Below are positions 2,712 through 24,749 of a DNA stretch of 64,000 bases, piece after piece. The notes beneath the pieces are model-generated. The model was not told where the DNA came from, did no database searches, and saw nothing but the letters and a program-made list of their open reading frames with translations. The first letter of the stretch is position 1. Every line of letters begins with the position of its first letter. Made by a program: the position numbers and the translations under genes. The DNA comes from Thalassospira lucentensis (GTDB lineage Bacteria > Pseudomonadota > Alphaproteobacteria > Rhodospirillales > Thalassospiraceae), in contig NZ_CP136684.1 in the NCBI RefSeq assembly GCF_032921865.1, positions 4,003,001-4,067,000 on the forward strand, in the 5' to 3' direction.

Positions 2712-2999
2712 GTGTTCAAAATTACCGGACTGGATAAGCTTCAGAAAAACCTGAAAGATGCGCAGCGCGCCTTGAGTGAGTTAGACGGCGAACTGGGGGT
2801 CGTAAACTTTGATCCAAATGATCCCGCCAGCATTGAGGGCGCAATTCAATCGGTCAATCGAATGATCGACGACCGCTTAGGAGAATATTCTTCGAACCCT
2901 ATCGTTGGCCCTCTCGCAGAACAAATGAAGGAAAAGTATCGGGAGAGTATTCTTGAAAAAGCGGCAGAAGCTAGATTGAAGTCGGATGGGGATGATTGA
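2712..2999 (+). CDS. 95-aa protein of unknown function between HTH and TIR-like genes
   Basis: I do not recognise a family. The protein is acidic and mostly helical in appearance: residues 1-25 look like a heptad-rich amphipathic helix (ITGLDKLQKNLKDAQRALSE), followed by a loop with NFDPNDPASIEGAI and a second helical half ending in GDD. It starts with GTG, six bases after a strong GGAGG. Its stop overlaps the first base of the TIR-like start codon (TGATG), so the two are probably translationally coupled. Coupling and size would fit a partner or antitoxin-like regulator of the TIR protein; that is inference. Confidence 0.78.
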   Translation: MFKITGLDKLQKNLKDAQRALSELDGELGVVNFDPNDPASIEGAIQSVNRMIDDRLGEYSSNPIVGPLAEQMKEKYRESILEKAAEARLKSDGDD

Positions 3000-3895
3000 T
3001 GGCTAAAGACTTATTCTCGGAAATAAACAATGCAGTTCTAGATTTGCAGTCCTCACAGCTTCAAACTTACGAAAGACCTCTCAAAAAATTGGCTCAACTG
3101 CTACGACATCCCGACCTTGAGCCATACAACGCCGAGCTCACGGAAGGTCTCGACGTTGAGGCGTTCATCGCTGAAAGTGAAAAGTCTGGGGGCAGCATGA
3201 TTGGAAGCGCCCAGCTTGCTTGGCCAGACGACCCCAAGCAGGCGCTGGGGTTGACGTTGCTTTTAATCGAGAAGCTGGCGGCAGATCCCGGCTACGCTAC
3301 CAATTTCGGACACCATTTTTTCTATTCCGGAAAAAAGGTCATTGCTGGAATTCACGCACTTACTGGCCAGCTAATCATTCCCTTTGTGCGGGATTACAAG
3401 AGTTATATCCAGACCAAGGGGAGCACGGATACCATGTTAAAAGCTCAATTTTCGCGCAAAGTCTTTATCGTTCATGGTCACGACGATGGTGCTCGTGAAA
3501 CAGTGGCACGATTTCTTGAGCGAATCGGGCTTGAAGCCGTCATCTTGCACGAACAGGCTAACCAAGGACGAACAATTATCGAAAAAGTGGTTGCTCACAG
3601 TGATGTTGGTTTCGCAGTAGTTCTGCTTACTCCAGACGATGAGGGCTGCGTAAAAGGAGGAACACCTGAGCCCAGAGCCCGTCAGAATGTGCTTTTGGAG
3701 TTGGGGTACTTCATTGGTCGCCTAGGCAGAGACAAGGTATGTGCTCTCAAACGCGGGGCGGTGGAAATTCCAAGCGATTTCGCCGGTGTTGTTTGGGAGA
3801 CGATGGATAGCGGCGGGGGCTGGAAACAGGCACTCGCGCGTGAGCTTGAAGCTGCCGGTCATAGCATCGACTGGAATAAGGTCATGCGTGCATAG
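2999..3895 (+). CDS. TIR-like nucleotide-binding effector protein (PF10137/CAP12-like TIR)
   Basis: A 298-aa protein. Residues 1-148 form an uncharacterised, partly helical domain. Residues 153-290 match the TIR-like nucleotide-binding family: RKVFIVHGHDDGARETVARF (strand A and BB-loop region), VVLLTPDDEG, and RARQNVLLELGYFIGRLGR, in which E234 sits where TIR NADases keep their catalytic glutamate. Relatives in Pycsar/CBASS systems degrade NAD+ once triggered. No cyclase gene lies nearby, so the trigger may come from the N-terminal domain or the 95-aa partner. The start is the ATG at 2999; a TTG codon just before it is less likely. I infer an abortive-infection role. Confidence 0.85.
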   Translation: MAKDLFSEINNAVLDLQSSQLQTYERPLKKLAQLLRHPDLEPYNAELTEGLDVEAFIAESEKSGGSMIGSAQLAWPDDPKQALGLTLLLIEKLAADPGYATNFGHHFFYSGKKVIAGIHALTGQLIIPFVRDYKSYIQTKGSTDTMLKAQFSRKVFIVHGHDDGARETVARFLERIGLEAVILHEQANQGRTIIEKVVAHSDVGFAVVLLTPDDEGCVKGGTPEPRARQNVLLELGYFIGRLGRDKVCALKRGAVEIPSDFAGVVWETMDSGGGWKQALARELEAAGHSIDWNKVMRA

Positions 3896-7465: not shown

Positions 7466-8296
7466 TCAGGCTTTCAACTGGCGCAGGCCATCGGCCAGCA
7501 GCCACAGGGCGCGATTGAGGCGAATATCGGAATCAATGCCCTGCACGGGGCGGGTTTGCTGGCGGCGTCCGTTGGCGCTGCGCCCATGCAAACCGCCTTT
7601 GGTCAGGTTCTCTTGGGTGCGGTTGAACACGCTCCACAAGTCCGGGCGGCGGTCGTCGAAGCGGCGCGGCATCAGGATTTGCGATTCGGTGATGGGCGCG
7701 GGCTTGTTGTCCGTGGGGTCGTACTTGAGGGCCAGCGCGGAACGGGCGAATACTTCGGCTTCGCCTTCATCCAGCGTGATCGTGCGCATAGCATCGCGGG
7801 ACTCCTTCACGCGCTCGAAACCGCTCAACACCTCGAAAGCGCCTTCAATGACGGAACTGGCCACGTCGCCTTTGTGGGGTACGCGCACGTCTGCCACGGT
7901 GTCGCCGCAGACAAGGCCATTGCTGCAAACGAAGCGGAACATTCCGGCCAACATCTGATAGCTGCTGGTGCCGTCGTGCGAGTTCAGCAGCACGATTTCG
8001 TTGGCTTCCGCGCCGTTGATCTGGCTGGCGTGGCGCAGGCGAATCATGTGTTTGGTGTGTTCGCGCTTGCCTTCATCGCGCACGCGGGTTTGCGTCACCA
8101 TGAAGGGTTGAAACCCCTCCTTGCGAAGCTCGGTCAACACGGCAGCGGTGGGGATGTAGGTGTACCGCTCGGAACGGCTCTCATGCGCGGCATCCGCGAA
8201 GATGGACGGGGCCACCCTGCGAATCTGGCCATCGGACAGCGGGTAGTCGCTGCGCAGTGAGGGGGAGCGGGAAGCGAAACGGGATGCGAGTTGCAT
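7466..8296 (-). CDS. DUF932 (phage/plasmid-like, TIGR03299-type) protein
   Basis: A 276-aa DUF932 protein: RRVAPSIFADAAHESRSERY near the N-terminus, then the conserved core IRLRHASQINGAEANEIVLL, NSHDGTSSYQMLAGMFRFVC and SNGLVCGDTVADVRVPHKGD. DUF932 proteins are spread by phages and plasmids; their role is unknown. The ATG at 8296 has GGAGA eight bases upstream, while a longer frame to 8524 reads into GC-rich leader DNA. It lies upstream of parB on the same strand and is a fixed part of the Tn4371 backbone. Confidence 0.88.
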   Translation of the reverse strand: MQLASRFASRSPSLRSDYPLSDGQIRRVAPSIFADAAHESRSERYTYIPTAAVLTELRKEGFQPFMVTQTRVRDEGKREHTKHMIRLRHASQINGAEANEIVLLNSHDGTSSYQMLAGMFRFVCSNGLVCGDTVADVRVPHKGDVASSVIEGAFEVLSGFERVKESRDAMRTITLDEGEAEVFARSALALKYDPTDNKPAPITESQILMPRRFDDRRPDLWSVFNRTQENLTKGGLHGRSANGRRQQTRPVQGIDSDIRLNRALWLLADGLRQLKA

Positions 8297-8916
8297 GGTC
8301 TTTCTCCTGACGAAAAGGGTTTGCTGTTCAAACCGCACACCGGATTCCAAGATTCGGAGCCCAGCCTTTCGGCTGTTCGGTGCGGTTGGCACGAGGAACC
8401 CGGTTGGCCCTGTTGCCACCGTCTTTCCTGAGTTCATCGCCCGCGGCCAAAGGAGCGCGCGGACGGGGGCCGTCAAGGAAACAAGCGCAGGGTTGGTGCG
8501 GCCCGCAGGCGCAGCCGAGGACACGGCCCTGCGCGCCTTGACGGCTCACGGAAGCGGGCTACGGTCGCGGACAAGGTGATGAAGTCAGGGGAGACGGCTG
8601 GACAAGGCAACGGCCGCCCTTGTGTGCTGAGCCGCACGCAAGCGAAGCGCGCAGGCCCGAAGCTGGAAGCCGGGCCGTAGGCGTCAGCCGAGCGGAGCGA
8701 GGGAACGATGGAAGCCCGTCAGGGGCGAGAACTCGCGTAGCGAGGCTCGATGCGCAGCACGACAGCGCGGCCGGCCGTGCTCTTGGGCCGGGGACGCCCG
8801 CCATGTTTGTTCCTTCAGCCCTATGCGTCCGACACGATTAATACCGAAATATCTGTTACATTCGATACGAAGTATCGAGACAGGCACTCCAACACCATTT
8901 CGGCAAAGAGGATCAC
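8297..8916. other. Non-coding spacer: DUF932 leader and promoter side of the TIR-caspase operon
   Basis: About 620 bp without a supported gene. The left two thirds are GC-rich. The block at 8638-8659 recurs with one mismatch at 11702-11723 upstream of radC, so backbone genes seem to share a leader type. From about 8830 the composition drops sharply toward A+T, marking the border of the inserted TIR-caspase operon. An inverted repeat, TCGATAC-GAA-GTATCGA, lies at 8862-8878, 39 bases before the first TIR start codon, a plausible operator or promoter element. Confidence 0.55.
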
Positions 8917-9288
8917 ATGGCAGACAAGAAAGTTATTTTCGTTGCATTCGCTATTGAAGACGAAAGGCAAAGGGACTTTTTGAAAGGTCAATCACTCCTT
9001 ACGAATTCCCCTTTCGAATACATAGATATGTCAGTCAAGGAGGCCTATGCATCGGAGTGGAAAGACAAAGTCCGTGCCCGAATTCGTCGATCGGATGGCG
9101 TGATCGCCTTGATTAGCAAGAACTCCTTGGCGTCTAGCGGACAGAAATGGGAGATTGCATGCGCACGTGAGGAAGGAAAGAAAGTGTTGGGCGTCTGGGC
9201 CTATTCCGATGATCGGACTAAAGTTGAAGGCGTAAACACTGTCGCATGGACATGGGATGCCATAAAGAACTTTATCAACGGTCTTTGA
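8917..9288 (+). CDS. ThsB-like TIR domain protein (MTH538/DUF1863 type), first gene of TIR-caspase operon
   Basis: A 123-aa single-domain TIR protein. It opens KKVIFVAFAIEDERQRDF (strand A), then YASEWKDKVRARIRRSDGVI and ISKNSLASSGQKWEIACARE, where W78-E79 matches the W-E signature with the catalytic glutamate of ThsB-like TIRs. ThsB proteins sense infection and turn NAD+ into a cyclic ADP-ribose-type signal. The gene is followed after 18 bp by the caspase-like gene and then by a second TIR gene, all on one strand. Composition is far more A+T-rich than the backbone. I infer that it makes the signal for the caspase-like effector. Confidence 0.87.
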   Translation: MADKKVIFVAFAIEDERQRDFLKGQSLLTNSPFEYIDMSVKEAYASEWKDKVRARIRRSDGVIALISKNSLASSGQKWEIACAREEGKKVLGVWAYSDDRTKVEGVNTVAWTWDAIKNFINGL

Positions 9289-9306
9289 CATACGCGGAGT
9301 GACGTT

Positions 9307-10281
9307 ATGCGCATAGCTCTAATCGTTGGCATAAATCATTACGAGCATGGTGGCTCTTTATATGGATGTGTCGATGACGCTCACGCGGTGCAAGCTGTCC
9401 TAGCTCGTCATGGGGATGGCTCTGTCAACTTCGATTGCAAAATGTTCACCGGGACTGGTCCAGCAGATCGCGTCGAACGGTCTTTATTAAAAGATCGCGT
9501 TGAGGAGCTTTTCAAGGCACAAGCTGATATTGCTCTTTTTTATTTTGCTGGTCATGGACATATTGAGGCGACTGGGGGATATCTGCTGGCGACGGATTCT
9601 CGCCGTGGTGACGAAGGGCTATCGCTCTCCGAAGTCCTTGCGTTGGCCAACAAATCGCCAGCACGCAACAAGATAATCATCCTTGATAGCTGCCACTCAG
9701 GAATAGCCGGCACTCCTCCAGTCGCTGGAGAGCTAGCCAGCTTGTCTGAAGGTTTGACGATCCTTACTGCCTCAGCGGCTGATCAGTATGCAACGGAGGA
9801 AAACGGCAGAGGCGTATTCACGACCCTATTGGTAGATGCCCTTCATGGAGGGGCGGCCAACCTCACTGGCGACATCACGCCAGGTAGCATTTATGCACAT
9901 GTTGACCAATCCCTGGGGGCTTGGGAACAGCGTCCGATTTTTAAAACCAACGTCCGTCAATTCGTCTCGCTTCGAAAGGTCAATCCGCCTATCTCCTTAG
10001 ATGATCTCAGGCGTATAACGGAATTTTTCCCCCGACGTGGTTTTGAATACAAGCTCGACCCTACATTCGAGCCGGAGCTGAAGGGGAGAGATCCCGGCAT
10101 GCCTCCGCCAGATCCTGAAAATACGCGCAAATTCGCGTTGCTGCAGCGATACAATCGCCTTAACTTGGTCGCGCCTGTGGATGCCCCTCATATGTGGCAC
10201 GCTGCCATGCAGAGCAAGTCCTGCAAGTTGACAGTGCTAGGGGAGCATTATCGGCTTCTTGCTGAAAAACAACGCCTGTAA
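9307..10281 (+). CDS. Caspase-like (peptidase C14) effector of a TIR-caspase system
   Basis: A 324-aa protein. Residues 1-215 form a caspase fold: [32 protein letters not shown] with the catalytic His at H83, and [10 protein letters not shown] with the catalytic Cys at C129. Residues 225-324 are a C-terminal domain with [19 protein letters not shown], a pattern I associate with bacterial caspase-family proteins and a candidate ligand-sensing part. There is no signal peptide, so it should act in the cytoplasm. Flanking TIR genes suggest activation by a TIR-made nucleotide, as in type IV Thoeris, followed by protein cleavage and growth arrest. Catalytic residues are complete; the target is unknown. 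Confidence 0.9.
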
Positions 10282-10301
10282 AGTGTATAAAAAGGAAAGG
10301 C

Positions 10302-10781
10302 ATGAAGATATTTTTATCTCATCAACAAACTGATTCGGCGTTAGCCTTGAGAATTCAAGGTCATTTAAAAAGAAATCACAACATTGATTGTTATTTGGAT
10401 GTCATTGATCCAAAATTTAATAACGGGGAAGATATTGCGGCACATGTCAGAAAGGAGCTTGACAAATGCACGCAACTGCTGGCTGTTGTTTCTGATGCAA
10501 CTAAGGCATCATGGTGGGTGCCATGGGAAATAGGTGTTGCAACGGAAAAGGATTTTCCACTTGCCACATTCGGTGGAAACATTGAGCTTCCAGATTATTT
10601 AAAGAAATGGCCGTATCTCAAAAGCACTTCTGATCTGGATATATACGCTGAGACATCCAAAGAAGCGGCCAAGCGCGTGCTAACTGCAAGCAACGAGTCA
10701 GCTTCATCTGGAACGACTGTATTCAGGGTGGATGCAACTAGACACTTCTATAAAACATTGCGAGCAAAGCTTGGGCAATAG
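10302..10781 (+). CDS. Second TIR domain protein of the TIR-caspase operon
   Basis: A 159-aa TIR_2-type protein. Residues 1-80 hold the core: MKIFLSHQQTDSALALRIQG, IDCYLDVIDPKFNNGEDIAA, and KASWWVPWEIGVATEKDFPL with E76 at the catalytic glutamate position. The last 60 residues (YAETSKEAAKRVLTASNESA onward) form a helical tail without a family I know. It starts 20 bp after the caspase gene, behind AAGGAAAGGC. It belongs to a different TIR subfamily from the first gene, so the two may have distinct roles, such as signal maker and sensor. Very A+T-rich. Confidence 0.88.
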   Translation: MKIFLSHQQTDSALALRIQGHLKRNHNIDCYLDVIDPKFNNGEDIAAHVRKELDKCTQLLAVVSDATKASWWVPWEIGVATEKDFPLATFGGNIELPDYLKKWPYLKSTSDLDIYAETSKEAAKRVLTASNESASSGTTVFRVDATRHFYKTLRAKLGQ

Positions 10782-10819
10782 AAGTGCGGGGGGCAGAAAT
10801 CCCTGTCACATTGGCGTGA

Positions 10820-10994: not shown

Positions 10995-11504
10995 CTAGAT
11001 TAGCCCGCGCTCGGCGAATGATGCCGTGGAGCTACCCGCAACGATGACGTGATCGAGCACCCGCACGTCCACCAGCCCCAGCGCCTCCCTGAGCCGCTGG
11101 GTCAGCGCCCGGTCGGCCGCGCTCGGCTCGGGGGTCCCGCTCGGATGGTTGTGCGAAACGATGACCGCCGCCGCATTCAACCGCAGCGCCTCCTTGACCA
11201 CTTCGCGCGGATACACCGAAGCACCGTCGATGGTGCCGTGGAACATCTCCCGGTATTCGATCAGCCGATGGCGCGTGTCCATGAACAGCACCGCGAACAC
11301 TTCATGCTCGAAGCCGGCCAGCTTGGTGCGCAGGTACTCCTTGACCGCCGCTGGCGAAGTGAACTCGGCCCCGCGCTGCATCTTCTGGTCGATGACCTGG
11401 CGCGCAGCTTCCAGAATGTCGCCGGCTGATGCCGGCAGATAGCGTCCGTGTGCGTCGCGCACCAGTAGCGAGGAATCGAAGGAAGGAAAGGACAGTTGTG
11501 ACAT
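10995..11504 (-). CDS. radC: RadC-like JAB/MPN domain protein
   Basis: A 169-aa RadC-family protein consisting mostly of the JAB metallo domain. The metal-site pattern is complete: E in GFEHEVFAVLFMDTRHRLI, then VIVSHNHPSGTPEPSAADRA giving the HxH-x(6-7)-S-xx-D motif, and DHVIVAG. Chromosomal RadC is longer and carries N-terminal helix-hairpin-helix motifs, which this ICE version lacks. ICE-borne RadC proteins are widespread, but their job is not settled; a DNA repair role is traditional rather than proven. It is a fixed Tn4371-backbone gene. A hairpin terminator follows. Confidence 0.92.
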   Translation of the reverse strand: MSQLSFPSFDSSLLVRDAHGRYLPASAGDILEAARQVIDQKMQRGAEFTSPAAVKEYLRTKLAGFEHEVFAVLFMDTRHRLIEYREMFHGTIDGASVYPREVVKEALRLNAAAVIVSHNHPSGTPEPSAADRALTQRLREALGLVDVRVLDHVIVAGSSTASFAERGLI

Positions 11505-15271: not shown

Positions 15272-17920
15272 ATGGCTATATTGCAAGAGATATTGGTTTG
15301 GACCCAGGGAATTCCCGCGTGGCAGAGCGATGCAATTTCTCGCTTGCTGGCGAAACAAACACTGACACCGCAGGACTACGAGGATTTGTATGCCTTGCTC
15401 AAGCTGGCACACGGAATCCCTGACCCAAAGAATCGTCAACCTCAGCCACTAACCGCCGACCAGATCCCAGCGAAGGTTAAGGCGACCACGCACATCGAGC
15501 TGCGGGCCATCAAGAATCTGCTTAACGTCAACGCAATTGCCGAGAATCAGCAGTTGGCGGTGGGTTCGGCGGGCATGACTGTCATTTATGGCGACAACGG
15601 ATCCGGCAAGTCAGGATATTCGCGCGTTCTTAAGCGTGCCTGCCGCGCTCGCGATCAGTCCGAGCCCATTCATCCCAATGCCAATCTGCCCGGGGCCAAG
15701 GCAGGTAATGCTCAAGCATCCTTCGATATCACGATTGACGGTGCCGTCAAGGAAGTGACTTGGCACCAAGGGAAAGAGGCTCCACCAGAGCTTTCTTCAT
15801 TCGCTATCTTCGACGCGCATTGCGCCCGGGCATATTTGGATAGTGAGGATGACTTCTCCTACGTGCCGTATGGTCTTGAAGTATTCGAGACGCTCGCCAA
15901 GGTCTGTCAACAGCTTAAAAACTCCGTTGAGCAGGAACACAAGCAGTCGGCTGTAGACCTCGCCGTATTCGCCCCGCTGCACGGCGAAACAGCCGTCGGC
16001 AAGCTGATCACGGGGCTCTCCGCGAAAACGACCACGGCTCAGATTGAGGCACTTGCCACTTTGAAGCAGGAAGAGCTTGAGCAGCGGGAAACGCTGGAGA
16101 AAAGCCTCAAAGAGAACAACCCGAAGGAGAAAGCCGGTCTCTTGCGTTTGCGCGCACGCCGCATTGCGGCGATCGCCAAGAATGCAGCCGATAAAGGACT
16201 TGTCGTCGGCCCCGAAGCCATCGCCAAGTTGAAGGCGCTGGCTGATAGCTTCCGTACAGCACAGGTCGCCGCCGCCCTTGCAGCGAAGAATTTCAAGGAG
16301 GGCGAAAATCTGCTGCCGGGGACTGGCGGAGAGGCGTGGCGGGAATTGTTTGATGCCGCCCGGAAGTTCGCGCTTGAAGCTCATCCAGATAAACAGTTCC
16401 CTGACTTGGGGACGGATGCCGCATGCCCGTTGTGTCAGCAGCCTCTGGCTGCGGGCGCAGAACGGTTGCTGCGATTCGAGGCGTTCATACAAGCGGAAGC
16501 GGAAAAGACGGCGCAAGCGCGGCGCCAAGCGCTTGCCGCCGACTACCGCCCATTTGCGGCCTCCGTCATGGTGTTGAACTTTGATGAGGCGACGCAGGCG
16601 GAAGTAGCGGAAATCGACTCACCGCTAGTGGCCGACACCAAGACTTTCGAGGCCGCACTGTCGGCGCGGCACGAAGCAATCAAGGCAGCGGTCGTCTCGC
16701 ATGACTGGACGGGACTGGATCAGGCCCTGGTCAGCCCAGCGGATCGACTACAGGTGCTCGCTGACAAATTGAATGCGGAGGCGGAGGCCCTGGATAGAGC
16801 CTCGAATGAAGAAGCTCGCGCTGTGTTGCAGAAGCAACTAGGCGAGTTGGATGCGCGCGTAAAACTCAGTCAAGTTAAGGAGGCCGTGGCTACGGCAGTG
16901 ACGAAGTTGGTGCACCAAGGGAAACTGAAGAACTGCCTGACTGCGGTCAGGACAAACGCTATATCCCTCAAAGCATCGGAACTCGCGGAAAAGGTGGTCT
17001 CCAAGGAACTGGCCGATGCGTTGAACTGGGAATTCAAAGCACTGGGCGTAGGGAGCTTGAGAGTTTCGCTGCAAAGCCGTGCCGACCGAGGGAAGGCGCT
17101 GCACAAGCTGAAACTGCAACTGCCGCAGGTTCGTAGTCCGGGTGAGATTCTGAGCGAAGGCGAGCAGCGTGCCATTGCGATCGGCTCGTTCCTCGCCGAG
17201 GTGGGATTGAGCGGTGGGAAAGGCGGAATCGTCTTCGACGATCCAGTCTCGTCCCTAGATCATCGTCGGCGCGAGCGCGTGGCCAAGCGCCTGGCCGCTG
17301 AAGCGGTGCAGCGGCAGGTCATCATCTTCACGCACGACATCTATTTCCTCTGTCTGCTAGCCGAAGAAGCAAAGCAAGTGGGTGCGGCAGTGGTCACGCA
17401 GAGCCTGACGCGGCGTGCTGAAGGCTTCGGCATAGCCGACCCGGAATTGCCGTTCGAAGGAAAGAACGCGAGCAAGCGCATCGGGGTGCTGAAAGCACAG
17501 CAGCAAGCAATCGCCAAACTGCACAAGGAAGGCAACGAGCAAGAACATCAAAGGCAGACGGTTGATGCGTACTTCCGCCTGCGCATGGCATGGGAACGCG
17601 CGGTGGAAGAAGTCCTCCTGCGAGAAGTCATTCTCCGCTTCCGAAAAGGTGTGGAGACACAACGGCTCGTCGGCGTGAGTGTGGGCGACGATGACTACGC
17701 GCAGGTCAACGCGGGAATGAGCAAGTGCTCCAACTATGCCCATGACAAAGCGATGATGGGCGGTGTTGCTATTCCTGATCCAGACGAACTGCTCACAGAC
17801 ATCCTCGCGCTGGAGAGCTGGCGTGCACAGGTTCACAAGCGTTCGGAAGAAACCGCCAAGAAGCGCAAAGCAGGGCCGCCGATTCCCGCAGGAGCTGGCG
17901 TGCAGGTCGCTCCAGCCTGA
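15272..17920 (+). CDS. Large zinc-hook AAA/ABC-type ATPase (RloC-like, AAA_13)
   Basis: An 882-aa SMC/Rad50-like ATPase. A roughly 100-residue N-terminal helical domain is followed by Walker A GDNGSGKS (residues 107-114), long coiled-coil segments (about 200-330 and 390-560), a zinc hook CPLCQQ near 385, signature ILSEGEQRAIAIG, Walker B GGIVFDDPVSSLDH near 651-664 and an H-loop IIFTHD. This layout is that of RloC, a DNA-damage-responsive anticodon nuclease. The last 190 residues contain RMAWERAVEEVLL and NYAHDKAMM, reminiscent of but not clearly equal to the Arg-Glu-His nuclease triad. Function is probably phage defence by translation arrest or nucleic-acid sensing; the nuclease claim is unproven. 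It starts seven bases after GGGAGA. Confidence 0.85.
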   Translation: MAILQEILVWTQGIPAWQSDAISRLLAKQTLTPQDYEDLYALLKLAHGIPDPKNRQPQPLTADQIPAKVKATTHIELRAIKNLLNVNAIAENQQLAVGSAGMTVIYGDNGSGKSGYSRVLKRACRARDQSEPIHPNANLPGAKAGNAQASFDITIDGAVKEVTWHQGKEAPPELSSFAIFDAHCARAYLDSEDDFSYVPYGLEVFETLAKVCQQLKNSVEQEHKQSAVDLAVFAPLHGETAVGKLITGLSAKTTTAQIEALATLKQEELEQRETLEKSLKENNPKEKAGLLRLRARRIAAIAKNAADKGLVVGPEAIAKLKALADSFRTAQVAAALAAKNFKEGENLLPGTGGEAWRELFDAARKFALEAHPDKQFPDLGTDAACPLCQQPLAAGAERLLRFEAFIQAEAEKTAQARRQALAADYRPFAASVMVLNFDEATQAEVAEIDSPLVADTKTFEAALSARHEAIKAAVVSHDWTGLDQALVSPADRLQVLADKLNAEAEALDRASNEEARAVLQKQLGELDARVKLSQVKEAVATAVTKLVHQGKLKNCLTAVRTNAISLKASELAEKVVSKELADALNWEFKALGVGSLRVSLQSRADRGKALHKLKLQLPQVRSPGEILSEGEQRAIAIGSFLAEVGLSGGKGGIVFDDPVSSLDHRRRERVAKRLAAEAVQRQVIIFTHDIYFLCLLAEEAKQVGAAVVTQSLTRRAEGFGIADPELPFEGKNASKRIGVLKAQQQAIAKLHKEGNEQEHQRQTVDAYFRLRMAWERAVEEVLLREVILRFRKGVETQRLVGVSVGDDDYAQVNAGMSKCSNYAHDKAMMGGVAIPDPDELLTDILALESWRAQVHKRSEETAKKRKAGPPIPAGAGVQVAPA

Positions 17921-18037
17921 GCCAATTGGATCAAGCGCACAAGAATCAGGCGAGCGATCACGAGCCAAGCCAGCAGCAACGCGGCAGTATTGCCTTCTGG
18001 AATCGGTTCATCAGGACCGCGCGAGGCGGAAAGGTCG

Positions 18038-19321
18038 TCACGCCTCTTGGCTTGTTTCCACATGATTGCGGTGCAGATCTGAAACCACCGCGATCAACCT
18101 GTTGATCGGCTCGGCCAGCCGCTTCGGCAATACACGGTGCTGGGTATGGGTTTTCAGATCGGCAATCCAGCGGTGCGCCACCCACACGTCCTCTTCGGGG
18201 TGGTGGTTGTCCACGCCGTTGCAATACTTGTAGCCAACGAGCGCATCCGTGTGCGACAGCAGGATGCGCGCCATCGTCATGTGGAAGCGATGGGCCTGGA
18301 GGTCCGCCGGGCTTCTGGGGCGCGGGAGGGTCAGCCGAAGGCATCGCTGGGCGTTGAACTCACTCCAGTCAGGGCCAACGACCTGCCCCGCGCGTTCAAG
18401 CATCTTGCGCGACTGCTCGTTCTTGCCGTTGACCAGCGCAACGGCGACCGTACCCTTCGAGTACTCCAGCTTTTCGGCGAGCAGGTTCATCCAGCGCACC
18501 AACTTGTTCAGGGTCTGATCGTCGGCGAACACAAGGAACTGATGGCGTTGCTCGTCATCCAGAAACGCCGGCAATTGCGCGTAGAGGGGGTACAACAGAT
18601 CGTGGAGATAGATGTAGGTTTGCCGGCGTCCTTGCTCGTGGCTCTGCGTGGTTGCGGTTAGTACCCGTTGTGCCCACTCGGGCGTAAGTTCGTCCAGCAC
18701 CATTTCGGTGATGTCGATGGAAATCAGCGGAAATCCGAGCGACTTCCCGATTAGTGCCTTGCGCCCGTCGAAGGCGTGGCCGAGTTCGATTTCAACGCCA
18801 CCCAGTACCATCGGCTCGGTTTGAACAGGTGGCCCAAGCACGGCAACGTCGAGCCGGAATTTGCTGCCGAATGGCGTTTCCAGAGGATGCTCGGTTGCCA
18901 CTTGGTCGGCACCGAGCAACATGTTGCCTTCCAACGGATAGTCCGACGCATCCGCATCCTTGAACGCCCAGGGCATCGCAAGCCCGGCACTCAAGCGCCG
19001 GGAGAGCTCGGCCGCGACAAGTTCTTTTGCCCGCCGGTGTTCGGGACTTTCCTGGACAGCGTGCCACCGACTGGCTTCTTCATCGTCAAAGTGCGCTTTG
19101 GGATTAAAGGCGTGCTGAGTTGGAAGCACACGAAAATGGGATCGCCGACGCAGTTTCCCACTTTCAAAGGAAGGGCTAACCCATGTCACCATCTGCCGCG
19201 ATGCGCCGGGAGACACTAGAGGCCAAAGCTTGCGCGCATGCTCCCGGCTGCGAACGTCGCGCGCAGCGATCGTGGTCTGGAAAATTCCTTTTCGAGAGAA
19301 GACAACGATCGCCTCGTCCAT
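18038..19321 (-). CDS. Protein of unknown function with a possible PD-(D/E)XK-like core
   Basis: A 427-aa protein with no family I can name firmly. Residues 85-190 contain HRRAKELVAAELSRRL, FGSKFRLDVAVLG and MVLGGVEIELGHAFDGRKAL: a helix with Glu, then D in a strand, E-x-E in the next strand and a following Lys, the order seen in PD-(D/E)XK nucleases such as CoiA-like proteins. The rest is helical. The ATG at 19321 is chosen over one at 19369, because the earlier start would overlap the upstream gene by 35 bp. It lies 13 bp after the Ymh-family gene and is surely in its operon. It converges with the zinc-hook ATPase, so these genes may form one system. Confidence 0.72.
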   Translation of the reverse strand: MDEAIVVFSRKGIFQTTIAARDVRSREHARKLWPLVSPGASRQMVTWVSPSFESGKLRRRSHFRVLPTQHAFNPKAHFDDEEASRWHAVQESPEHRRAKELVAAELSRRLSAGLAMPWAFKDADASDYPLEGNMLLGADQVATEHPLETPFGSKFRLDVAVLGPPVQTEPMVLGGVEIELGHAFDGRKALIGKSLGFPLISIDITEMVLDELTPEWAQRVLTATTQSHEQGRRQTYIYLHDLLYPLYAQLPAFLDDEQRHQFLVFADDQTLNKLVRWMNLLAEKLEYSKGTVAVALVNGKNEQSRKMLERAGQVVGPDWSEFNAQRCLRLTLPRPRSPADLQAHRFHMTMARILLSHTDALVGYKYCNGVDNHHPEEDVWVAHRWIADLKTHTQHRVLPKRLAEPINRLIAVVSDLHRNHVETSQEA

Positions 19322-19334
19322 TCCTGTCTTGCCC

Positions 19335-20153
19335 CTATTGCGATGCGGCAGCGAACTTCGTGGTGCCATCCAGCTTGCGGTGAATCAGCGATACCAGCGT
19401 CAAGATGTCCAGCGCGTCCTGTTCGGACATGGGCCAATTCGTCTTGGGTGCATGGGCCAGCGGATTGCGCACAGCACCAAACAGTCCGATCAGCAGGTTG
19501 GCAAAGCCTTTCTGCTCGCTTTTTTCGGACTCGGTGGCGAGTGGTCCCAAAGCGAGAACAGGCTGCTGGCCCGCGAATGCCTTGTTCACCAGATCCGCGC
19601 CATCGCTGTTCAGGCCTGATAGCAGGCGAATCCGTTCTGCAACGCCTTTCGTTGCCTCAAACACGGCATGGAAGTAGTTTTCGTCCAGCAACTCGGCGCG
19701 GCAGTAGCTCAGCACTTCCGCATGAACGACACGGCTTTCCAGTGCGGCCTTGAGTTGTCCTGCACGGGCGCGCGCGGCATCGAGCGTCGTGGCCTTGTCG
19801 GCATGCCCGACCTTGCCGTCTTCGCGCATGTAGAAACCGGAGAAGGCCAGGACGACATTGAGTTCGTCGCGCCGCCAAGTGAATGTCACGGGGTCGCGGG
19901 CGTAGTTCACCGGGTTCATAGCGCGATTGATGAACATGATGAGATGGTTCCCGATCTGGTGCCGGTTTTGCGCGCCAGCCAGCGCATTGAACAACCGCTT
20001 CCATTTGGTAATGCCGGGCGACGTGTCGGCAACCTCGATTTCTTGCAACAAGCGCTCGATCTGCGTTCCACTCAGGCCCCGTTCGGTATCTGCAAGCACA
20101 CGGCAAGCGGCTTCAAGATGCTGTGAGCTGAAAGGATCAATTCGCGTCGCCAA
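19335..20153 (-). CDS. TIGR02391/Hypoth_Ymh family protein with HEPN-like RNase motif
   Basis: A 272-aa protein. Its C-terminal half (about 150-262) matches the Ymh/TIGR02391 family: YFHAVFEATKGVAERIRLLS, LVNKAFAG, ESEKSEQKGFANLLIGLFGA, and VRNPLAHAPKTNWPMSEQDA ending LTLVSLIHRKLDG. RNPLAH is an R-x4-H motif, the active-site signature of HEPN ribonucleases, which often serve as toxins in abortive infection. The N-terminal half includes a helical domain with a NRHQIGNHLIMFINRAMNPV stretch. It is the first gene of a pair with the 427-aa protein. I infer a defence role; the RNA target is unknown. Confidence 0.82.
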   Translation of the reverse strand: MATRIDPFSSQHLEAACRVLADTERGLSGTQIERLLQEIEVADTSPGITKWKRLFNALAGAQNRHQIGNHLIMFINRAMNPVNYARDPVTFTWRRDELNVVLAFSGFYMREDGKVGHADKATTLDAARARAGQLKAALESRVVHAEVLSYCRAELLDENYFHAVFEATKGVAERIRLLSGLNSDGADLVNKAFAGQQPVLALGPLATESEKSEQKGFANLLIGLFGAVRNPLAHAPKTNWPMSEQDALDILTLVSLIHRKLDGTTKFAAASQ

Positions 20154-20175
20154 TGTTTATCTCCCTCGTCAGGCA

Positions 20176-20478
20176 TCAGATGATGGCCTGCAAGCCCTTG
20201 TCGGCGATGACGTTTAGCAGCTTGAGTGCCGGGCCGGTGGGATGGGTTTCGCCTTGCTCCCACTTGCGCACAGTCGAGGCCGAGGTATGCAGGTGCAGCG
20301 CAAACACCGGCTGGCTGAACTTCAAGGCTTCACGCAGGCGCTTGATGTCAGCAGCGCCAAACTCCCGCACTGGCGGCGGGCAAATCGCGTCGAACTCGCG
20401 CATCGTCACCTTGCTGATCGCTCCGGCTTCGTGGAGCGCCGCCAGGTCGCCGCGCAGCGATTCAATGATCTTGCTCAC
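20176..20478 (-). CDS. XRE-family antitoxin (HigA/NadS-like)
   Basis: A 100-aa protein with a C-terminal Cro/C1 HTH: FGAADIKRLREALKFSQPVF then LHLHTSASTVRKWEQGETHP. The N-terminal 35 residues would wrap the toxin. It starts with GTG at 20478 behind GGAGG and overlaps the toxin gene by 17 bp, so synthesis is coupled. This toxin-first order is typical of HigBA-like and NadS-type modules. It should repress its own promoter, probably through the palindrome at 20862-20876. Confidence 0.87.
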   Translation of the reverse strand: MSKIIESLRGDLAALHEAGAISKVTMREFDAICPPPVREFGAADIKRLREALKFSQPVFALHLHTSASTVRKWEQGETHPTGPALKLLNVIADKGLQAII

Positions 20479-20845
20479 AATGCACCTCCAGTAAAACACC
20501 CGACTGCAACGCCTTCGACAAGGCTTCGGCAGGCAGTTCCAAGAACACCTTGCCGGCGAATTGCAGCGCCTTCTTCTCGTCCTGCGTGATGTTCGCCTTG
20601 TCGCTCTTAGGGAACCCATGCAGGAACACATAGCGGCTGCCAATCTTGGCCGACAGCAACGTGCGATAGCTGCCGCTCTTGCCTGCGCCAGGGCGGGCCA
20701 CCCGCTTCTTGTAGAGGAAGCCTCCCAAGTCCGCGTCGATCAGACCGCTTTCCATCTCCTGAACTGCCTTGCACAAGGCAGCATCGGGCAGCTTCTCGCC
20801 CGACTGCCACCGAGCAAAGTCCTTGCGCTTGAGGATGGGCGTCAT
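20462..20845 (-). CDS. RelE/HigB-type toxin (PF06296-like)
   Basis: A 127-aa toxin of the RelE/HigB superfamily: KRKDFARWQSGEKLPDAALC, GLIDADLGGFLYKKRVARPG, GSYRTLLSAKIGSRYVFLHG and FPKSDKANITQDEKKALQFA. These proteins cut mRNA on ribosomes when the antitoxin is lost, which stabilises the mobile element. GGAGG stands five bases before the ATG at 20845; the codon TTG four codons earlier overlaps that site and is rejected. It lies at the distal end of the accessory region next to int. Confidence 0.88.
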   Translation of the reverse strand: MTPILKRKDFARWQSGEKLPDAALCKAVQEMESGLIDADLGGFLYKKRVARPGAGKSGSYRTLLSAKIGSRYVFLHGFPKSDKANITQDEKKALQFAGKVFLELPAEALSKALQSGVLLEVHCEQDH

Positions 20846-20857
20846 ATCGACCTCCAA

Positions 20858-20886
20858 ACTATACCCGTAACGGGTACACTTTTCAA
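20858..20886 (-). promoter_or_regulatory. Toxin-antitoxin promoter with operator between -35 and -10
   Basis: On the minus strand TTGAAA (20881-20886) and TATAGT (20858-20863) are separated by 17 bp. The perfect palindrome TACCCGT-T-ACGGGTA (20862-20876) fills the spacer and overlaps the -10 box. GGAGG and the toxin ATG follow within 20 bases. Binding of the antitoxin HTH here would block RNA polymerase directly. Confidence 0.78.
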
Positions 20887-20984
20887 GTTGGCGCGGTGAG
20901 GCCGCCCCGGAAGGGGCGGCACACCCGATTGTCGTGATAGCAACACGACAATCGGGGCTGGCAAGGCGGGAGCATGGTCGCCGG

Positions 20985-22184
20985 TCACGCCGTCGCCTCC
21001 GCAGCGCGGGATACGCCTGTGATCGTCTTGCGCCGATTTGCCACCAAATCAGCCGCTTCGCGCACCGGTTTGTCCTCTGTGTGGACGTAGCGCATGAACA
21101 TCGCCACGGTCTTGTGCGCCGTCAGCGCCATGCCGACCTTCACCGGGATGCCGGAATTGGCAATGTCCGTCGCTGAACGGTGACGGATGCCGTGCGTGCC
21201 CACATGCGTCACGCCTGCAGCTTTGAGAGTGCGGCTCCAACCGTTGTAATACTCGCCGTCGGTCAGATGCCGATCAGGGTGACGCGGAGACGGTAATACA
21301 TGGGGCGTCGTAGCATTGCGAGCCGCCGTCGAAAGAAGCCGATAGGCTTCTTCGCTCATGGGCTTGGACATACCGCCTGTCTTGCTGTCAGGCCACACCA
21401 CCCGCCGGTTTTCCAGATCAATCCAATCCCATTGGAGTGAGACGATCTCAGAAAGGCGAGCGGCAAACTCGAATTGCAGGCGGATGGCCAACGGGATCAC
21501 AGCATGCTCCAGGCCTTCCACCTCCAACTGGCCAAGGTAGCGAAACAACTTGCCCATTTCCTCGTCGCTGATCAGGTGAGTCGCCTTGCCGTTGGGGTAC
21601 ATCGGTACATGACGGCATGGGTTGGTGCCGTCAGGGCGATAGCCCCATACCTCGGCCAAGTTGAACATCTTGCGCATCACGCTGAACGTGCGGTTCGCAT
21701 CGGCGGGCTTGTGCGCCATCTTCTTCATCATTGAAGCGACATCGGGCCGCTTCAGATCCTGCACCTTCAAGCGGCCAAGCATCGGAATGATGTTGCGATC
21801 AATGACGCTCTGGTAGCCTTCCTGCGTGCTCGGCTTGTTGCGCTGGCTGGAGTAGTCCTCCATGAACTTGATACACAGTTCCTTGACGGTGGGTGCCTGA
21901 CGCGCTGCAGCCTTCTCTGCGGCAGGATCTCCACCCCGGCGCACTTGCGCCAGCCACTCCTGGGCTAGCGACCGGGCTTGTTCGACGGTCAGCTCTCCAT
22001 ACAGTCCCAAGGCAGGTTTGCGCCGCTCTCCGGCGTTTGTCCGGTACTGGAGCATGAACACCTTGCGGCCTGCCGGGGTGATCTTGCACAAGAAGCCAGG
22101 AACCAGGGTATCGCGCAGTTCGATGGGCTGAGCTTGGGCTTGTGCCGCATCGACTGCGGACTTGGTGAGTTTGATTTTCGCCAT
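20985..22184 (-). CDS. int: Tyrosine recombinase/integrase of the ICE (Tn4371 type)
   Basis: A 399-aa P4-type integrase with an N-terminal arm-binding DUF4102-like domain (MAKIKLTKSAVDAAQAQAQ, RDTLVPGFLCKITPAGRKVF), a SAM-like core-binding domain (PSTQEGYQSVIDRNIIPMLG) and a catalytic domain. Catalytic residues are visible: Arg in FAARLSEIVSLQW, H-x-x-R in HGIRHRSATDIA, His in LTAHKTVAMF and the Tyr in MRYVHTED. It catalyses integration and excision of the element. The start is about 175 bp from the predicted attachment site, as in other Tn4371-family ICEs. A toxin-antitoxin module lies downstream. Confidence 0.95.
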   Translation of the reverse strand: MAKIKLTKSAVDAAQAQAQPIELRDTLVPGFLCKITPAGRKVFMLQYRTNAGERRKPALGLYGELTVEQARSLAQEWLAQVRRGGDPAAEKAAARQAPTVKELCIKFMEDYSSQRNKPSTQEGYQSVIDRNIIPMLGRLKVQDLKRPDVASMMKKMAHKPADANRTFSVMRKMFNLAEVWGYRPDGTNPCRHVPMYPNGKATHLISDEEMGKLFRYLGQLEVEGLEHAVIPLAIRLQFEFAARLSEIVSLQWDWIDLENRRVVWPDSKTGGMSKPMSEEAYRLLSTAARNATTPHVLPSPRHPDRHLTDGEYYNGWSRTLKAAGVTHVGTHGIRHRSATDIANSGIPVKVGMALTAHKTVAMFMRYVHTEDKPVREAADLVANRRKTITGVSRAAEATA

Positions 22185-22358
22185 GATGACTCCTCGGAAG
22201 ACCCGATTTCCAGGAGCCTGTTGGGAGCCAAGCGGGTGGAAGCCGGGTCAGGTTTCAGAAAGCACCGGCATATGATGAATCTGCCTAAGTTATTGATAAA
22301 CCTGCTGTATCGAGCAACGGCGTAGCCCAGCGAAGTTCGGTGCTGGAGTCATGGTGAA

Positions 22359-22366
22359 ATAAAAAA
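22359..22366 (-). other. Predicted attachment site (ICE-chromosome junction)
   Basis: The octamer TTTTTTAT on the minus strand fits the TTTTTYRT-type target of Tn4371-family ICEs as I remember it. It coincides with the T-tract of the clpP terminator. Left of it the sequence leads to int; right of it the chromosome begins. The opposite end is outside the window, so the repeat cannot be confirmed here. Confidence 0.6.
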
Positions 22367-22395
22367 AACGCCCCGGCAAAACACCGGGGCGTTTT
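22365..22395 (-). terminator. clpP terminator at the ICE junction
   Basis: A perfect 12-bp stem (AAAACGCCCCGG and its complement, 7-nt loop) lies 21 bp after the clpP stop. On the minus strand it is followed by a run of eight T's, which overlaps the predicted attachment site. Confidence 0.88.
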
Positions 22396-22416
22396 CATCG
22401 GATCGTTATGGAACGA

Positions 22417-23046
22417 TCAATCTTTTTTCGCATCAGAATCCGGTTTCGGACGTGACGTAACCACCTCGTCAATCAGGCCGAATTCCTTGGCCTGATCCGG
22501 GGTAAGGAAGTTATCTCGCTCCATCGCGTCTTCAATCGTCTTGAGATCACGGCCGGTATGCTCGACATAGATCTCGTTAAGACGCTGACGCAACGCCAGA
22601 ATTTCGCGAGCATGGATTTCGATATCCGATGCCTGCCCCTGGAACCCGCCGGACGGCTGGTGAATCATGACGCGCGCATTCGGCAGGCAGTAACGCTTGC
22701 CCTTTGCACCGGCCATCAGCAACAGCGATCCCATGGAAGCCGCCTGCCCCATGCACACCGTGGAAACATCGCAACGGATGTATTGCATGGTGTCATAGAT
22801 CGCCAGACCCGACGTCACAACCCCGCCCGGGGAGTTGATGTAAAGCGAGATATCCTTGTCCGGGTTTTCCGATTCGAGATGCAGCAACTGCGCGCAGATC
22901 AGTGACGACATGCCGTCATGTACCTGGCCGTTGATGAAGACGATCCGCTCCTTGAGAAGACGGGAAAAGATGTCATAGGCCCGTTCACCACGGCTGGTCT
23001 GTTCAACCACCATCGGCACGAGCGAGTTCATCTGTGCTTCAATCAT
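22417..23046 (-). CDS. clpP: ATP-dependent Clp protease proteolytic subunit
   Basis: A 209-aa ClpP, the serine peptidase barrel that works with ClpA/ClpX to degrade tagged or misfolded proteins. The catalytic triad is present: Ser in [19 protein letters not shown], His in [20 protein letters not shown] and Asp in [20 protein letters not shown]. The usual short N-terminal propeptide is present ([20 protein letters not shown]). AAGGAG lies ten bases before the ATG at 23046. It follows tig on the same strand (46-bp gap), the standard tig-clpP order; clpX would come next but the ICE has separated whatever lay downstream. Confidence 0.97.
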
Positions 23047-23092
23047 CGACTGCAATCTCCTTGCTGCATCCTAAACCGGTATGTCGGACGGA

Positions 23093-24550
23093 TTACTTCT
23101 CTTCCGATTTATCGGCCTTTTTCTTGGCGGCCGGCTTCTTGGCAGCAGCTTTCTTGGCCGGAGCCTCTTTGTCTGCAGCTTTTTTAGCCGGTGCCTTCTT
23201 GGCAGCCGATTTCTTCTTCGGAGCTTCGTCTTCCTCTTCCGGTTTCAGAAGGTCTTCGACCGAAACGGTCTTGTCTTCTACCTTGGCGAGTTCGACGATG
23301 AAATCCACGACCTTGTCTTCATATACAGGGCCCTGAAGCGCCTGCAAGGCCTGCGGGTTATTTTTATAGAATTCAATAACCTGCTGTTCCTGACCCGGAT
23401 ATTTCTGGGCTTCGGCAACGAGGACCTTGTTTACGTCTTCCTGGGTAACCTGGATTTCGTTTTTACGGCCAACTTCTGCCAGCAGAAGACCAAGAAGAAC
23501 GCGGCGTTCTGCGATTTCGCGGAACTCGGCGGTCAGTTCTTCTTCGGACTTGCCTTTGGTTTCGTCATCTTCCTGACCGGCTTCACGCGCCTGTTTGATC
23601 TGGCCGATGATGCCTTCCAGCTCGTTCTCGACCAGGCTGGTCGGCAGTTCGAAGCTGTGGTTTTCAGCAAGCGCGTCAAGCAACTGGCGTTTCAGTTTCT
23701 GACGGGCAACCGATTCGTACTCGCGGCCGTAATCCTTACGGATTGCGTCTTTAAGCGCGTCAAAGCTTTCCTGGCCGAGTTTCTTGGCGAGTTCATCATC
23801 AAGAGCAGCCGGTTTCTTTTCCTTGATTTCCTTGACGGTTACGTCGAACTCGGCATCTTTGCCTGCAAGTTCAGCCGCACCATAGGCTTCCGGGAATTTC
23901 ACCTTGACGACAACTTCGTCACCAGCATTGACACCGGTCAGCTGGTCTTCGAAACCTTCGATGAACGAGCCCGAACCAAGTTCGAGTTCGTAATCTTCGG
24001 CTTTACCGCCTTCGAAAGCTTCGCCACCGATTTTGCCAAGGAAGTCGATGACGACAACGTCACCGGCTTTCGATTTGCGCTTGCGTGCGAGCGGCTCGGT
24101 GGTGCCCTGCGCTGCTGCAATACGATCAAGCGTTTCGTTGACTTTCGCATCGTCAAGTTCAACGACTTCGCGGGTCAGCTTCAGCTTTTTGAAGTCCATC
24201 GGCTCGATGGCCGGGATGACTTCGACAGCAATGGCGAACTCAAGATCCTTGCCTTCGTCAAACGAGGTCACTTCGATTTTCGGCTGAACGGCCGGGCGCA
24301 GGTCATTATCGTTAAGAACCTTGCCGGTGTTTTCGTTTACAGCGGATTCGAGAACTTCACCCATGACGGCCTGGCCATAGCGCTGGCGCAGCAGTTTCGC
24401 CGGTACTTTGCCCGGACGGAAGCCCGGAAGGCGAACCTGGTCTTTGATCTCGTCGAGTTTGGCGACGACTTTTTCTTCGATCTGAGCGGCGGGCACAACG
24501 ACTTTGAACTCGCGCGCCAGGCCTTCGTTTTTGGTTTCAGTAACCTGCAT
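23093..24550 (-). CDS. tig: Trigger factor, ribosome-associated chaperone/peptidyl-prolyl isomerase
   Basis: A 485-aa trigger factor. The N-terminal ribosome-binding domain carries the signature LPGFRPGKVPAKLLRQRYG near residues 40-60. A FKBP-type PPIase domain follows (GDVVVIDFLGKIGGEAFEGG, SFIEGFEDQLTGVNAGDEVV), then the helical C-terminal chaperone domain. The protein is longer than the usual 430-450 residues because of a tail of about 45 residues made almost wholly of Lys, Ala, Pro and Glu (AAKKAPAKKAADKE-like repeats). Such tails occur in some alphaproteobacterial trigger factors. It folds nascent chains at the ribosome exit. Confidence 0.97.
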   Translation of the reverse strand: MQVTETKNEGLAREFKVVVPAAQIEEKVVAKLDEIKDQVRLPGFRPGKVPAKLLRQRYGQAVMGEVLESAVNENTGKVLNDNDLRPAVQPKIEVTSFDEGKDLEFAIAVEVIPAIEPMDFKKLKLTREVVELDDAKVNETLDRIAAAQGTTEPLARKRKSKAGDVVVIDFLGKIGGEAFEGGKAEDYELELGSGSFIEGFEDQLTGVNAGDEVVVKVKFPEAYGAAELAGKDAEFDVTVKEIKEKKPAALDDELAKKLGQESFDALKDAIRKDYGREYESVARQKLKRQLLDALAENHSFELPTSLVENELEGIIGQIKQAREAGQEDDETKGKSEEELTAEFREIAERRVLLGLLLAEVGRKNEIQVTQEDVNKVLVAEAQKYPGQEQQVIEFYKNNPQALQALQGPVYEDKVVDFIVELAKVEDKTVSVEDLLKPEEEDEAPKKKSAAKKAPAKKAADKEAPAKKAAAKKPAAKKKADKSEEK

Positions 24551-24664
24551 AGATAACTCTTTTGCTTGGTTCGAATAATGTCCGTTACGCGACGCAGTCC
24601 GGACGTCAGAAAGTCAATATGACTAAACGAATATGCATCCTGGTCTTAATTTATGGTCAGCTTA

Positions 24665-24749
24665 TGGTACGGGCGAAGGGACTCGAACCCCCACGGATTG
24701 CTCCACTGGAACCTAAATCCAGCGCGTCTACCAGTTCCGCCACGCCCGC
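24665..24749 (-). tRNA. tRNA-Leu (anticodon UAG)
   Basis: An 85-nt gene on the minus strand starting GCGGGCGTGGCGG and ending GTTCGAGTCCC-TTCGCCCGTACCA, with CCA encoded. The anticodon stem CTGGA/TCCAG encloses loop TTTAGGT, giving anticodon TAG for CUN leucine codons. The long variable arm (GTGGAGCAATCC) marks a class II tRNA. The first acceptor pair is G-U. Confidence 0.94.

Follow-up and report, generated by a model that had tools for sequence, protein, structure and literature searches.

Why should an operon built around one caspase-like protease carry two different TIR genes? The question is raised by a 64,000-nucleotide stretch of the Thalassospira lucentensis genome (contig NZ_CP136684.1, positions 4,003,001 to 4,067,000; hereafter the window), in which three open reading frames on the plus strand encode a TIR protein of 123 amino acids (TIR1), a caspase-like protease of 324 and a second TIR protein of 159 (TIR2). 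The first two genes are 18 bp apart and the last two 20 bp. A sequence-only reading of this DNA had proposed an anti-phage operon resembling type IV Thoeris, and its coordinates, residues, 18–20 bp spacing and placement on one strand were right. Comparative sequence evidence suggests that TIR2 is probably a second phage alarm acting on the one suicide protease. The operon has the following features.

8917-9288, plus strand: TIR1, ThsB_TIR-type, 123 amino acids (PF08937, 31.5 bits; catalytic-type pair F8 and E79)
9151-9153, plus strand: codon of TIR1 E79
9307-10281, plus strand: caspase-like (C14) protease, 324 amino acids
9553-9555, plus strand: codon of caspase H83
9691-9693, plus strand: codon of caspase C129
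9982-10278, plus strand: caspase residues 226-324, the C-terminal domain and proposed signal sensor, conserved and without a Pfam match
10302-10781, plus strand: TIR2, 159 amino acids, from a TIR family of its own whose C-terminal end (...LR..LGQ) is conserved
10527-10529, plus strand: codon of TIR2 E76

Profile (hidden Markov model) searches, which the sequence-only reading had asked for, gave TIR and C14 matches that all exceed the Pfam thresholds. TIR1 matches ThsB_TIR (31.5 bits, cut-off 21.2), the protease matches Peptidase_C14 (66.7 bits, cut-off 21.4), and TIR2 matches both TIR_2 (43.9 bits, cut-off 28) and ThsB_TIR (25.8 bits, cut-off 21.2). In PADLOC, ThsB models match both TIR proteins and the 'caspase' model matches the protease. 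Position 79 of TIR1 is glutamate in 98 of 99 aligned rows, the other row having a gap, and F8 is present in 99%. In TIR2, F4 and E76 are invariant in 28 chosen sequences, and E76 aligns with the glutamate of BcThsB (PWELG). Both glutamates thus stand at conserved positions, and the earlier view of E79 and E76 as catalytic-type residues survived the alignment. In staphylococcal ThsB2, a phenylalanine facing the glutamate forms the pair that proved important (PMC12578639). The caspase keeps H83 and C129 in all 107 aligned rows, and D127, beside the cysteine in the motif DSCHSG, in at least 95%. In metacaspases, an acidic pocket of this kind means cutting after arginine or lysine. By analogy, D127 predicts the same preference here, and this prediction is testable.

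A PDB sequence search returned nothing for TIR1 at E ≤ 1 and only weak metacaspase-9 matches for the caspase. The sole NCBIfam model to match the caspase is NF047832 (EACC1-associated caspase), at 103 bits over residues 3-203, which is below the model cut-off of 140 and leaves the protein outside that family; the NCBIfam matches include no type IV Thoeris model. The MALT1 paracaspase (PDB 3uo8) shares 18% identity with the caspase over an aligned range that stops at residue 225. For residues 226-324, of which there was no separate model, the structure comparison listed no match. Sought alone, this C-terminal domain is present in 7 of 398 genomes, the window included. Five of the matches beyond the window lie in caspase frames of 320-361 residues, each with TIR1 upstream, and the remaining one is a 131-residue frame near a contig start. 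Of the 120 listed TIR2 homologues, counting the one in the window, 89 have LGQ as their last three residues.

The pairing of TIR1 with the caspase is strongly conserved. At E ≤ 0.001 the caspase has 7,796 homologues among 7,999 scored candidates and TIR2 has 637, so the operon is not a chance arrangement. One scan of genome contigs confirmed 231 caspase relatives, of which the best 80 (58-100% identity) were kept. A TIR was counted as an open frame of at least 30 bits within 3.5 kb, and the counts are therefore of frames rather than proven genes; the models used to find them were built in part from matches at the same loci and so find TIR1 and TIR2 relatives better than other TIRs. None of the 80 loci is without a TIR frame, one TIR being present in 54 and two or more in 26. 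The caspase homologues are thus not mostly TIR-free, in line with the sequence-only reading. In 75 of the 80, the caspase is preceded at no more than 160 bp by a TIR1-type gene of the same strand. The five exceptions are a weak TIR match downstream that runs to the contig end (L017), TIR genes downstream with the nearest on the opposite strand (L036), a 37-bit TIR fragment at a contig start (L047), an opposite-strand frame of 1,010 residues that contains a TIR match (L052), and a different TIR type directly upstream with TIR1 types on either side (L056). On viral contigs, all 11 caspase relatives have an adjacent TIR1-type frame. Among the 106 caspase loci that score 250 bits or more, a set that includes window duplicates and loci fetched through TIR2, TIR1 is directly upstream in 98. 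The record titles of the 80 loci name Pseudomonadota, Bacteroidota, Cyanobacteria, Planctomycetota, Bacillota and others, and two are archaeal (L013 and L037). The core pair is widely spread, with TIR1 upstream of caspases up to 76% identical even on these archaeal-titled contigs.

Type IV Thoeris was reportedly described by Rousset and colleagues in Science in 2025, with N7-cyclic ADP-ribose (N7-cADPR) as its signal. By every feature tested, the TIR1-caspase pair is a type IV Thoeris-like core at the level of sequence. The TIR and caspase genes stand side by side in one operon, as in 75 of the 80 relatives, and the catalytic glutamate and the His/Cys dyad are kept, which supports the classification offered by the sequence-only reading. 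In type IV Thoeris, a cyclic ADP-ribose isomer made by the TIR protein switches on the caspase-like protease (PMC12847820). The locus differs in having a third gene downstream of the caspase, which encodes a TIR protein of another family. The type I and II effector ThsA (SIR2-STALD or membrane-macro) is not the effector here, which is a C14 protease, and no SIR2 or macro match was found in the three operon proteins or in ten other window proteins scanned with Pfam. Type I Thoeris of Staphylococcus aureus and a streptococcus can likewise combine one effector and two different TIRs in one operon; its effector ThsA carries a STALD domain and cleaves NAD+, whereas here the effector is a protease (PMC12578639). 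Multi-TIR Thoeris is therefore a known design in type I, and the new part here is the third gene, TIR2. A literature search found no description of a TIR-caspase-TIR form, but the original type IV paper was outside that search and the form is not claimed to be unpublished; no paper on 'type III Thoeris' was found.

On comparative grounds, TIR2 represents a TIR family of its own that is linked to these caspases. Eighteen plasmid records hold a TIR2 homologue, and by match coordinates a caspase lies within 2.5 kb in 16 of them. These 16 amount to about 12 distinct loci, because they include four alike Agrobacterium records (judged so by length and match) and two alike Rhizobium records. The other two records (H18 and H19) are the weakest TIR2 matches, partial and at most 30.3% identical, with no caspase annotated within 4 kb. 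Conversely, a caspase match that spans at least 80% of the query occurs in 43 plasmid records, and 16 of these also carry TIR2. In two genome samples, one of the class (289 genomes) and one of the phylum (398 genomes), the strong TIR2 matches outside the window stand beside TIR1 and caspase in three of three cases (G051 from the class, G401 and G489 from the phylum). By contrast, the 22 weaker TIR matches among the 25 places of the phylum search have no caspase in their loci of 1.9-3.4 kb. The viral contig L128 also holds all three genes.

Gene order around TIR2 varies. The order TIR1-caspase-TIR2 is found in the window, L002, L004, G051, G401 and plasmids of Klebsiella, Sinorhizobium, Methylorubrum and Bosea. 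TIR2 precedes TIR1 and the caspase in Bradyrhizobium, Methylobacterium, L063 and G489; both TIR genes lie together, divergent from the caspase, in R. rhizogenes and L128; and a DUF1273 gene separates the caspase from TIR2 in R. binae, in the order TIR1-caspase-DUF1273-TIR2. The sequences also point to exchange. L119 and L120 share TIR2 proteins that are 93% identical, with caspases at 59% and TIR1 proteins at 33%. Over 17 loci, distances correlate between caspase and TIR1 (0.40; 2 of 2000 permutations) and between caspase and TIR2 (0.38; 4 of 2000), and hardly between TIR1 and TIR2 (0.15; 170 of 2000). L082, with its interrupted caspase gene, was excluded. Of the three proteins, TIR2 diverges fastest between near relatives: L002 and L004 are 84% and 86% identical to the window in TIR2, 98 and 95% in the caspase and 93% in TIR1. 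Another near relative, L003, has a caspase at 95% and a TIR1 at 93% identity and lacks TIR2. By these comparisons, the TIR2 family is reshuffled against both TIR1 and the caspase.

We lean towards reading the operon as an abortive-infection system of the type IV Thoeris kind that receives two TIR inputs. The constant partner, TIR1, would sense phage infection and turn NAD+ into a cyclic ADP-ribose-type signal (N7-cADPR in the published system). The caspase would bind this signal, probably through its C-terminal domain; thus activated, it would degrade cell proteins and stop the phage. TIR2, a second TIR enzyme recruited separately, would answer a different phage cue and feed the same caspase. 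The sequence-only reading had left TIR2 as another synthase or a regulator, and the comparative data favour an extra sensor or synthase over a regulator. In a more specific and tentative form, TIR2 may be a plug-in alarm module, belonging to a mobile TIR sensor-synthase family exchanged between TIR-caspase cores, so that one protease would integrate two independent phage cues. The cues could act either/or, or only when both are present, and TIR2 could contact either the trigger or the protease through its constant C-terminal end. If TIR2 is an independent input, the operon would be a bacterial caspase switch with interchangeable sensors. In animal inflammasomes, several sensors feed one caspase, and the likeness would hold as an analogy. 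A 1.9-kb operon would then allow a direct test of whether the two TIRs share one signal and of which phage protein each of them recognizes.

An alternative is that TIR1 and TIR2 form one sensing complex, in which one binds the phage trigger and recruits and activates the other, which makes the signal. The staphylococcal precedent keeps this explanation alive: in the S. aureus type I system (PMC12578639), the two TIRs form a complex, Sau-ThsB1 binds a phage capsid protein and activates ThsB2, and the catalytic residues of ThsB2 are needed, those of Sau-ThsB1 not. TIR1 is also present in all 17 examined loci that hold caspase and TIR2. However, 54 of the 80 caspase loci have a single TIR, the catalytic pair is kept in both TIRs, the distances of TIR1 and TIR2 hardly correlate, and nearly the same TIR2 (93%) occurs with TIR1 proteins only 33% alike. 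The comparative data lean to separate inputs, and in the streptococcal multi-TIR system ThsB1 alone was sufficient against one phage (same source). Most cores lack TIR2, and where it occurs it goes with the effector and with no particular TIR1; a second, exchangeable sensor or synthase therefore fits better than an obligate complex, which we regard as unlikely. Less likely still is that TIR2 does not feed the caspase at all and is a second effector or a regulator, for example a modulator of TIR1 or an NADase that uses up NAD+. Many bacterial TIR proteins are simple NADases, the LGQ end shared by 89 of the 120 listed homologues suggests a special contact, and TIR2 follows an S8 peptidase gene directly in Agrobacterium (L119) and with one gene between in Sphingomonas (L117). 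It is most improbable that TIR2 is an unrelated defence gene sharing the cassette by chance. Other defence-model matches do occur on the element, yet the proximity of TIR2 to a caspase in 16 of 18 plasmid records and in all three strong genome-sample cases spans several gene orders in alpha- and gammaproteobacteria.

Several points weigh against TIR2 as an exchangeable second input to the caspase. Of the 80 caspase loci on genome contigs, only 5 have TIR2, and two of the five (L001 and L005) are nearly identical to the window. The 17 loci behind the correlations were picked for holding all three genes and are not independent. The loci of the phylum search that serve as the control, those of the 22 weaker TIR matches, have shorter flanks than the 2.5 kb used for the plasmids. 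On the viral contig L127, a TIR2 of 164 bits has no caspase in view, 0.5 kb from the contig end. The S8 loci (L119, 3682-5498, where a CHAT gene precedes the S8 gene; L117, 1600-5507) suggest that TIR2 may serve other effectors and hint at a second protease type. Finally, the likeness to type IV is one of gene content and residues, the published type IV proteins having been compared by description.

The operon appears to be mobile, and its surroundings include the following features.

8889-10803, plus strand: extent of the cassette, from the borders of the blastn match to Paracidovorax oryzae (L004), where the context is different
7466-8524, minus strand: DUF932 gene
10995-11504, minus strand: RadC gene

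The G+C content is 0.42-0.54 over the three genes and 0.60-0.66 on either side, which bears out the A+T-rich patch between DUF932 and radC described earlier. Bordetella petrii (L005) matches the window at 99.8% identity over 17 kb and a Pseudomonas contig (L001) at 99.9% over 5.5 kb, and P. oryzae carries the bare 1.9-kb cassette at 83% identity over 1,917 blastn columns. Neither TIR2 nor the caspase C-terminal domain is found in any of the three same-genus genomes of the phylum sample, and a megablast search of 50,697 phage records gave no near-identity match. Partial matches occur in 7 of 5,426 E. coli genomes; all of them lie on plasmids and none covers 80%. A perfect 17-base palindrome 5' of TIR1 (8862-8878; 0.08 matches expected) was dropped as an operator because it is absent from the near relatives L002, L003, L004 and L082. 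Promoter-like sites (2; shuffles 2.0) and terminator-like sites (3; shuffles 2.2) show no excess over shuffled sequence.

The operon seems to belong to a defence island. Another TIR protein lies upstream (2996-3892), with a CAP12/Pycsar TIR domain and a score of 240.6 bits against the PDC-S35 candidate defence model. The stretch 15272-24749 holds a PDC-S06 ATPase (733.5 bits) and, at 19335-20153, a PD-Lambda-3_B protein (579.3 bits); a tyrosine recombinase (20985-22184) and a tRNA-Leu (24665-24749) are near these matches.

Variants of the core were also seen elsewhere. Ten loci titled Bacteroidota (L019, L029, L048, L053, L057, L059, L067, L074, L075 and L079) carry two tandem TIR1-type genes before the caspase, another two-TIR solution. 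A metallophosphoesterase gene, a possible further partner, adjoins the caspase or is one gene away in three alphaproteobacterial plasmids (L118, 4883-7560; L180, 3879-6468; L116, 445-2833). In L082, the Pseudomonas aeruginosa plasmid p30Pae2-KPC, the interrupted caspase gene, which lacks an annotation, lies between TIR1 and TIR2 as a two-piece match with extra DNA separating the pieces. Nine plasmid records (H63-H71) match only the first 128 caspase residues, at 75.8% identity, which points to a recurrent remnant; in one of them (L179, H65) a TIR1 gene precedes the remnant, and aadA1 and a transposase-domain gene are its neighbours.
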